NCBI RefSeq assembly: GCF_014137855.1
Contig: NZ_JACGWT010000002.1
Location: 434,001 to 498,000 of the forward strand
Direction of reading: 5' to 3'
DNA length: 64,000 nt
Source of the DNA: Microlunatus kandeliicorticis
Lineage (GTDB): Bacteria > Actinomycetota > Actinomycetes > Propionibacteriales > Propionibacteriaceae
In this document: in pieces, positions 61,421-64,000 of the stretch
Layout of the letters: each line of letters opens with the position of its first letter
Numbering within the stretch: position 1 is the stretch's first letter
Position numbers and translations under genes: made by a program
The notes under the pieces: model-generated
Databases searched by the model: none
Seen by the model: the letters and a program-made list of their open reading frames with translations, nothing else
Told to the model about the DNA's origin: nothing

Positions 61421-61467
61421 GTCAAGCGAGGGTTGACGGGGTCGGAGTGTCAACTTAGCCTTGACAC
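61421..61467 (+). promoter_or_regulatory. Strong promoter with two GTCAA-N7-TTGAC operators
   Basis: TTGACG (61433-61438), 17 bp, TAGCCT (61456-61461), then 6 nt to the GTG: a near-ideal leaderless sigma-A promoter. GTCAA-N7-TTGAC at 61421-61437 covers the -35, and GTGTCAA-N7-TTGACAC at 61447-61467 covers the -10 and the start. The centres are 28 bp apart. Confidence 0.8.
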
Positions 61468-62082
61468 GTGGATCGCGTCGAGCTGAGCGAGCAGATCGCC
61501 AAGGTGGCCGACCTGCTGCGGTTCGAGCTGGACGACCCGGCCGCCGACCCGGTGCACGCGGTCGCGGCCGCCCGGACGCTGCGGGGGCTGGCCGACGACG
61601 CGCTGGCCGAGCTGGTGGCCGCCGCCCGTAGCCGCGGCGCGTCCTGGCAGCGGATCGGGGACGCCCTGGGGACCAGCCGACAGAACGCGTTCCAGCGGTT
61701 CGGGCAGCCCCTCGACCCGAGGACCGGTGAGCCGATGTCCCGTGCCGTCGTCGAGGACGCCGAGCCCCGCGCGCTCGCCCTGCTGCGAGCGGTCGCCGAG
61801 CACCGCTGGGCCGACGCCTGCCGCGACTTCGGACCGACGATGGCCGCCGCGCTGACCCCCGAACGGCTCGCCGACGCCTGGGCGCAGGTGGTCGCGATCG
61901 GCGGCGAGCTGGAGCGGTTCGGCGAGCCGCGGAGCCACCCGCTGGCCGGGGTCACCGTGGTCGAGGTGCCGATGCACCACGAGGCGGCCGACCTGCTCGG
62001 CCGGGTCAGCCTGGCCGCCGACGGCGCCGTCGCCGGCCTGTGGTTCCTGCCCGTCCCGGACGGCAGGGGAGCGGAGGAGTGA
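61468..62082 (+). CDS. HTH-containing regulator-like protein with DUF3887-like C-terminus
   Basis: 204 residues. Residues ~57-77, 'GASWQRIGDALGTSRQNAF', form an HTH of the type found in actinobacterial Clp-N-like and related small regulators. The C-terminal ~110 residues resemble DUF3887 (a small alpha+beta domain with 'LAGVTVVEVPMHHEAADL'). The GTG start is fixed by the leaderless promoter. Two operators at its own promoter imply autoregulation. Overlaps the CPBP protease gene by one base (TGATG). Confidence 0.72.
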   Translation: MDRVELSEQIAKVADLLRFELDDPAADPVHAVAAARTLRGLADDALAELVAAARSRGASWQRIGDALGTSRQNAFQRFGQPLDPRTGEPMSRAVVEDAEPRALALLRAVAEHRWADACRDFGPTMAAALTPERLADAWAQVVAIGGELERFGEPRSHPLAGVTVVEVPMHHEAADLLGRVSLAADGAVAGLWFLPVPDGRGAEE

Positions 62083-63089: not shown

Positions 63090-63533
63090 TCAGACCTCGA
63101 CCGAGAGCACGGCCACCGCGACCCGACCGACCTGGTGACCGGCCCCGGTGATCAGCGCGGTGGCACGGGTCCGGACGTCCTCGGCGATCTCGTCGGCCGG
63201 CCGGACCGGGTGGACGGCCACGTCGATCCGGGCCTCCACCACCCCCGACCGCCGCGACAGCACCACGCCGTCGGGGAGCCCGCCGACGCCGATCACGTTC
63301 ATCGGGCCGGTCGAGAGCGCCCGCAGGTGGCCGCGCAGCGTCGGCTCGAGCCGCGCCACTCCGGGGACCGCGAGGGTCGCCTCCGCGACGGCCTGGGCCA
63401 GGACGACGAGCTCCGCGGTCGCGCCCGTCGGGGTGGAGCCCGGCGTGCCGGTGGCCGCGTCGGCGGCCACCGCCACACCCGGGTCGGCCGTCGCCGGGCC
63501 GGGCGAACCCGGCTGGTCGGACAGGTCAGGCAT
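63090..63533 (-). CDS. Asp23/Gls24-family-like protein
   Basis: 147 residues. A Thr/Ala/Gly/Pro-rich first ~40 residues, then a fold with 'EATLAVPGVARLEPTLRG' and 'VVEARIDVAVHPVRPADEIAEDVRTRA', which fits the alkaline-shock (Asp23/Gls24) family. The ATG overlaps the end of a second such gene by 8 bases. Function in actinobacteria: envelope stress, not well defined. Confidence 0.7.
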   Translation of the reverse strand: MPDLSDQPGSPGPATADPGVAVAADAATGTPGSTPTGATAELVVLAQAVAEATLAVPGVARLEPTLRGHLRALSTGPMNVIGVGGLPDGVVLSRRSGVVEARIDVAVHPVRPADEIAEDVRTRATALITGAGHQVGRVAVAVLSVEV

Positions 63534-64000
63534 CGAACACGTCCTCGACCGTGATGTCGACCGCGACCACGTCGAGCCCGGTCTGCTCGCGGACCGAGGT
63601 CCGGACCCGCTGCCGCAGGTCGGCGGCCAGGCTGGCCATCCGGGTCCGGGCGCTCAGCGCGGTGGACAGCTCGACCCGCACCCGCGACCGGCCGTCGGCG
63701 TGGTGCGCGGGCTCCACGGTGCGGACCCGGCAGCGCCGGGCCATCACGCCGGGGATGCCGTCGGCGGTCCGCCGGACCAGGGTGGCCACCGACTGCTCGC
63801 TGATGGCCAGGTCCGGCGCCTCCGGTGGCGTGGTCTGCCGCAGCGGGAGCATCTGCCCCCGGCGCACCTCGGCGCGGGCCAGCTCCATGATCGACGCCTT
63901 CGCCCGGTCGCTGGGCTGCATTCCCGGGTCGCGCTCGTCGGACGTCCGCAGGTCGCGGGCCGCCTCCTCGAGCCGGCCGAGGCTGGCCCGGGCCGCCTGG
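63526..64000 (-). CDS. Asp23/Gls24-family-like protein, N-terminus at or beyond the edge
   Basis: A full Asp23-like domain is present ('LVRRTADGIPGVMARRCRVRTV', 'VRVELSTALSARTRMASLAADLRQRVRTSV'). ATG 63921 gives 131 residues, but no ribosome-binding site precedes it and the frame stays open to base 63999 with plausible helical coding sequence, so the true start may lie outside the window. Confidence 0.65.
   Translation of the reverse strand, partial: QAARASLGRLEEAARDLRTSDERDPGMQPSDRAKASIMELARAEVRRGQMLPLRQTTPPEAPDLAISEQSVATLVRRTADGIPGVMARRCRVRTVEPAHHADGRSRVRVELSTALSARTRMASLAADLRQRVRTSVREQTGLDVVAVDITVEDVFDA

Follow-up and report, generated by a model that had tools for sequence, protein, structure and literature searches.

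A twin operator in the predicted leaderless promoter of an HTH-DUF3887 and CPBP protease gene pair of Microlunatus kandeliicorticis points to a family of probable ClpC2-type autorepressors in actinobacteria

In actinobacteria, the palindrome CGTCAAC-n5-GTTGACG often occurs twice, over the -35 and the -10 element of the leaderless clpC2 gene, and DNA binding by ClpC2, autorepression and release by cyclomarin A have been demonstrated (Taylor et al. 2023; PMC10030653). In the same study, DNA binding was assigned to the C-terminal domain on the basis of an R185A/R189A variant that binds DNA less well, and the crystal structure of the N-domain (8ADA) ends at residue 72 (PMC10030653). Among the open-licence papers searched, this was the only one found to deal with the operator. 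A second described protein, RelI, consists of 85 amino acids, neutralises the toxin RelS and carries an F-type recognition helix (ITRQAAFQRFG) of the same helix-turn-helix (HTH) family. In the accessible part of the article describing it, no evidence is given that RelI binds DNA, no inverted repeats were found upstream of relS-relI of M. tuberculosis, and DUF3887 fusions are named among the RelI homologues as typically encoded by stand-alone genes, with neither operators nor CPBP partners described for them (Han et al. 2026; PMC13284704). For DUF3887 itself, binding of a small molecule has been proposed in a structure paper (PMC3924330).

The stretch of DNA analyzed here, a window of 64 kb from M. 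kandeliicorticis, contains a gene pair whose operator architecture is already known from ClpC2 (Table 1). An earlier note on this DNA had described GTCAA-N7-TTGAC as present twice, 28 bp apart, over the -35 and -10 elements; indeed, both copies are perfect and their starts are separated by 28 bp. It had also regarded the switch as one of a kind not recognised, which does not hold because ClpC2 shares the architecture. The 28-bp spacing follows from the distance between the -35 and -10 elements, and its interpretation as a sign of protein-protein contact was therefore set aside. When one mismatch is allowed, the window contains these two palindromes and no others, with 0.34 expected from shuffled sequences. 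They are also the only exact matches in the whole 4.30-Mb genome, and a search with the looser orthologue consensus GTMAA-N7-TTKAC again returned just these two. The note had suggested such a scan and counted a lack of further sites against its proposal; sites elsewhere are indeed lacking, but without them the two palindromes are a dedicated self-operator, so that this objection does not apply. The GTG start codon lies 2 nt past operator 2, approximately where transcription should begin, and the mRNA of the HTH gene would therefore be leaderless.

Table 1. Positions of the regulatory elements and genes of the HTH-DUF3887/CPBP locus within the window
Feature	Position	Strand	Remarks
Operator 1, GTCAAGCGAGGGTTGAC	61421-61437	+	perfect GTCAA-N7-TTGAC; right arm forms the -35 element; architecture shared with relatives
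Operator 2, GTCAACTTAGCCTTGAC	61449-61465	+	perfect GTCAA-N7-TTGAC; holds the -10 element
-35 hexamer TTGACG	61433-61438	+	right arm of operator 1; read from the sequence
-10 hexamer TAGCCT (TANNNT)	61456-61461	+	17-bp spacer from -35; inside operator 2; pattern conserved
HTH-DUF3887 gene, 204 aa	61468-62082	+	GTG start; predicted leaderless mRNA
CPBP (Rce1-like) glutamic intramembrane protease gene, 328 aa	62082-63068	+	EExxxR, H and HxxxN intact

The HTH-DUF3887 protein possesses an N-terminal dimer/HTH domain (residues ~28-79), in which a helical dimer part with the Asp-Arg pair precedes the recognition helix of the HTH, and an NTF2-like DUF3887 domain (residues 93-203). In the structure model, the HTH helices comprise residues 60-67 and 71-78, the latter being the recognition helix with the motif TSRQNAFQR. 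Residues D43, R54 and W60 correspond to D46, R57 and W63 of ClpC2, and D43/R54 match the salt bridge D46-R57 of the ClpC2 dimer. The protein resembles mycobacterial ClpC2 (Rv2667) in its operators over -35 and -10, its leaderless layout, its N-terminal dimer domain and its HTH family, whereas DUF3887 takes the place of the cyclomarin A-binding Clp_N domain at the C-terminus. It is therefore not a ClpC2, and while no protease partner has been reported for ClpC2, the HTH gene studied here adjoins a CPBP gene. The score against the DUF3887 profile (PF13026, 27.1 bits) is below the Pfam cut-off of 31.8. The assignment nevertheless holds because all 41 aligned family members, the window protein included, match at E <= 0.01 and because the fold agrees, the predicted model aligning with 4HYZ with a Z score of 13.4 over 104 residues. 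Unlike 4HYZ, the domain is fused to an HTH in a soluble protein of the DNA-binding type; a transmembrane segment was not detected in it (best 19-residue hydropathy 1.39). Among solved structures, RelI (9SDC, E 2.4e-6) comes closest in sequence; it shares the HTH, with a helix of the F type, but is far shorter. The model also resembles the N-domain of the cephalosporin esterase ORF12. An NCBIfam match to the esterase EstD, far under its cut-off, probably reflects the shared NTF2-like domain and was dismissed.

Relatives were collected with an alignment of six HTH-DUF3887 proteins, as a search of genome contigs with the window protein alone as the query had found none. This yielded 251 relatives, of which the best 80 loci, i.e., the top-scoring ones with close relatives among them, were kept, and further relatives were found in the order. 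A set of 99 orthologues was examined. A perfect GT[A/C]AA-N7-TT[G/T]AC site is located upstream of 80 of these 99 genes, as opposed to 12 of 4169 control segments, and a twin site upstream of 48, as opposed to none of the 4169 controls. The start codon follows 2-4 nt past the last site in 60 orthologues. In the remaining 19 of the 99, the scanned upstream stretch lacks a perfect site, but at least two (L006/L065, L008/L064) have a site 378-409 bp upstream, and the gene may therefore be second in an operon there.

The downstream gene encodes a polytopic membrane protein, as judged by motifs and hydropathy, that matches PF02517 with 58.7 bits (cut-off 22.4, E 7e-16) and shares the conserved EExxxR, H and HxxxN motifs with CPBP/Rce1-like proteases; it fits none of the named NCBIfam subfamilies. 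The one-base overlap with the HTH gene that had been described before is confirmed for the ATG start (TGATG), while an alternative GTG start at 62079 would give a 4-bp overlap as in relatives. A CPBP homologue is encoded directly downstream in 35 of the 99 orthologues, 27 of these CPBP genes overlap the HTH-DUF3887 gene by 4 bp, and the three motifs are kept in 34-35 of these 35 paired loci. The conservation of pair and operator to which the earlier note had looked is thus found, although more broadly for the operator (80/99) than for the pair (35/99). Elsewhere, the gene downstream of the HTH-DUF3887 gene encodes an ORF12-like secreted protein with a beta-lactamase fold, a PH-like protein or another protein, or there is no partner at all. 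In seven loci (L098, L103, L111, L119, L124, L149, L169), the HTH-DUF3887 gene is followed by the gene for the secreted ORF12-like protein, the N-terminal domain of which matches ORF_12_N (Pfam, checked on L149). Downstream of the M. kandeliicorticis pair, an Asp23-family gene and then a second small gene without a Pfam match are located on the minus strand (63093-63921).

The same layout extends well beyond the DUF3887 proteins. Of the 395 genomes of the class, 212 contain the twin pattern, as compared to four matches for the reversed control. The HTH encoded behind it is the same one, either unfused or joined to DUF3887, Clp_N or a ClpX zinc finger. A second survey that started from the HTH domain covered 134 loci, at which GTCAA and GTCAG are the commonest palindrome arms, with spacers of 6-7 bp. 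There are 121 distinct twins: in 108 the two sites lie 27-29 bp apart, in 83 the -35 arm is followed by TANNNT after a spacer of 16-18 bp (3.8% expected), and in 93 the first in-frame start lies 2-4 nt past the last site. Here, too, unrelated domains (ClpX zinc finger, Clp_N, PASTA or DUF3887) are fused to the HTH under one operator type, and 58 proteins of 66-94 aa consist of the HTH only and have the same operators.

The recognition helix and the half-site vary together. When the residue at helix position 4, i.e., the one after RQ or KQ, was compared with base 5 of the half-site, all 150 pairs agreed without exception: alanine goes with GTCAA (or GTAAA) in 128 of 128 cases and serine or threonine with GTCAG in 22 of 22. 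All mutual information on base 5 resides at this position, while base 3 and the length of the spacer are best predicted from helix position 6 (Phe/Tyr allows GTAAA; His is found where the spacer is 6 bp long, Gln and Phe where it is 7 bp). Selecting loci by operator instead gave alanine for 23 of 23 GTCAA twins and serine for 4 of 4 GTCAG twins; a regular expression recognised no HTH downstream of 7 of 30 GTCAA-twin loci, nor in one (L286) of the 5 genomes out of 395 that contain the GTCAG twin pattern. Relatedness inflates these counts, and a tree-based test identified three well-supported independent switches (seven on the best tree), all of them concordant, three being too few for significance on their own. 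The window protein has asparagine at position 4, neither alanine nor serine/threonine, and its sites are of the GTCAA type. In W-type helices, alanine at position 4 is accompanied by GTCAAG and serine by GTCAGG, which makes them natural single-residue switches (L185, L060, L061). The open-licence literature searched contained no description of this code.

Operator, promoter geometry, conservation, helix-to-operator code, gene pair and predicted fold are computed results, and the regulatory unit is real, conserved and functional-looking. We consider it probable that the HTH-DUF3887 protein represses both its own gene and the CPBP gene until a ligand releases it. The earlier proposal that the two genes form a unit under their own control, with twin operators inside the promoter and a sensor of the DUF3887 type, is supported. 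The HTH-DUF3887 protein would be a dimeric member of the ClpC2-type HTH family whose N-terminal HTH reads both palindromes in its own leaderless promoter, and since these contain the -35 and -10 elements, the bound repressor would keep RNA polymerase out. It would be released by a signal, the likeliest candidate being a small molecule in the NTF2-like pocket that the predicted fold of DUF3887 suggests, and transcription would then supply more sensor together with the co-transcribed CPBP membrane protease, which would carry out the response. Autorepression is well supported; binding and repression, which are demonstrated for ClpC2 only, we infer, as we do the ligand and the role of the protease. 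Against this reading stand the 19 orthologues without a perfect site, the asparagine at helix position 4 and, as far as the accessible text on RelI goes, the absence of DNA-binding evidence for that protein.

It is unlikely that the protease instead regulates the switch by cleaving or releasing the HTH protein. This idea goes back to the earlier note, in which the protease might release or inactivate that protein, and it is not supported. The genes are coupled in the 35 paired orthologues and the CPBP protein looks active with its motifs intact, but CPBP proteases act in the membrane, whereas the HTH protein lacks a transmembrane segment, and most orthologues have no CPBP neighbour and yet retain the operator. 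Quite unlikely, too, is a toxin-antitoxin-like pair in which the CPBP protein would be harmful and the HTH-DUF3887 protein would neutralise it as RelI does RelS. RelI is the nearest solved structure and, in the accessible part of the article, DUF3887 fusions are placed in the RelI family, but the same text calls them typically stand-alone (PMC13284704). The partner, moreover, differs between loci (CPBP, ORF12-like hydrolase, PH-like protein or none). CPBP proteins are not a known toxin family. The RelS-RelI layout, a short HTH protein encoded beside a RelS toxin gene, is not found at this locus either, where the HTH gene codes for 204 aa and is flanked upstream by a gene matching alpha-L-rhamnosidase and downstream by the CPBP gene.

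We see very little likelihood that the operator is that of a different regulator with a wider reach, for which the HTH gene is merely one target. The half-site resembles the consensus -35 element and the motif could therefore be partly promoter-driven, but the genome holds no further site, the fifth base follows the recognition helix encoded by the adjacent gene in every one of the 150 pairs, and the twins by far outnumber the reversed-control matches. It is equally improbable that the C-terminal domain reads the DNA, as proposed for ClpC2 from residues R185/R189, and that the N-domain only dimerises. The reduced binding of the double variant speaks in its favour. However, the HTH-only proteins have the same operators, a single type of operator is found with fused domains that are unrelated to one another, and the half-site tracks the helix of the N-domain, which argues for the N-terminal HTH as the operator reader and against the published placement in ClpC2. 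In a model of a ClpC2 relative, the recognition helix is located at residues 74-81, just past the end of the 8ADA crystal structure; the recognition helix was not visible when DNA binding was placed in the C-terminal domain. For the question of which ClpC2 domain binds DNA, the complete N-terminal HTH is now the better candidate.

With the autorepressor reading, a single published case, ClpC2, becomes part of a family with a predictable operator, whose targets and spacings can be read from the protein sequence, and the simple protein-DNA recognition code can be tested by single substitutions. Possibly, though we advance this only tentatively, actinobacteria have a large class of soluble one-component autorepressors that share this HTH, the twin operator within the promoter and the recognition code. 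The sensor domains of many members (Clp_N, ClpX zinc finger, PASTA, NTF2-like) resemble parts of antibiotic targets, so that each member may sense when the protein imitated by its domain comes under attack; the HTH-DUF3887/CPBP pair would then be one such resistance switch. The family thereby points to candidate antibiotic-sensing switches.

Some members deserve mention in their own right. HTH-only proteins of 66-94 aa with twin GTCAAC operators and a 6-bp spacer are encoded at L019, L023, L027 and L174-L176, among other loci. Soluble proteins in which an HTH with the helix RQSAWER is fused to a PASTA domain, which is otherwise usual outside the cell, occur at L270, L272, L276, L277 and L279. 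Fusions of the HTH to a ClpX-type zinc finger account for 12 of 38 (L014, L030, L185, L220, L221, L257 and others), most of those named here carry GTCAGG twin operators, and the genome of M. kandeliicorticis itself contains a ClpX-zinc-finger-like paralogue (L250).
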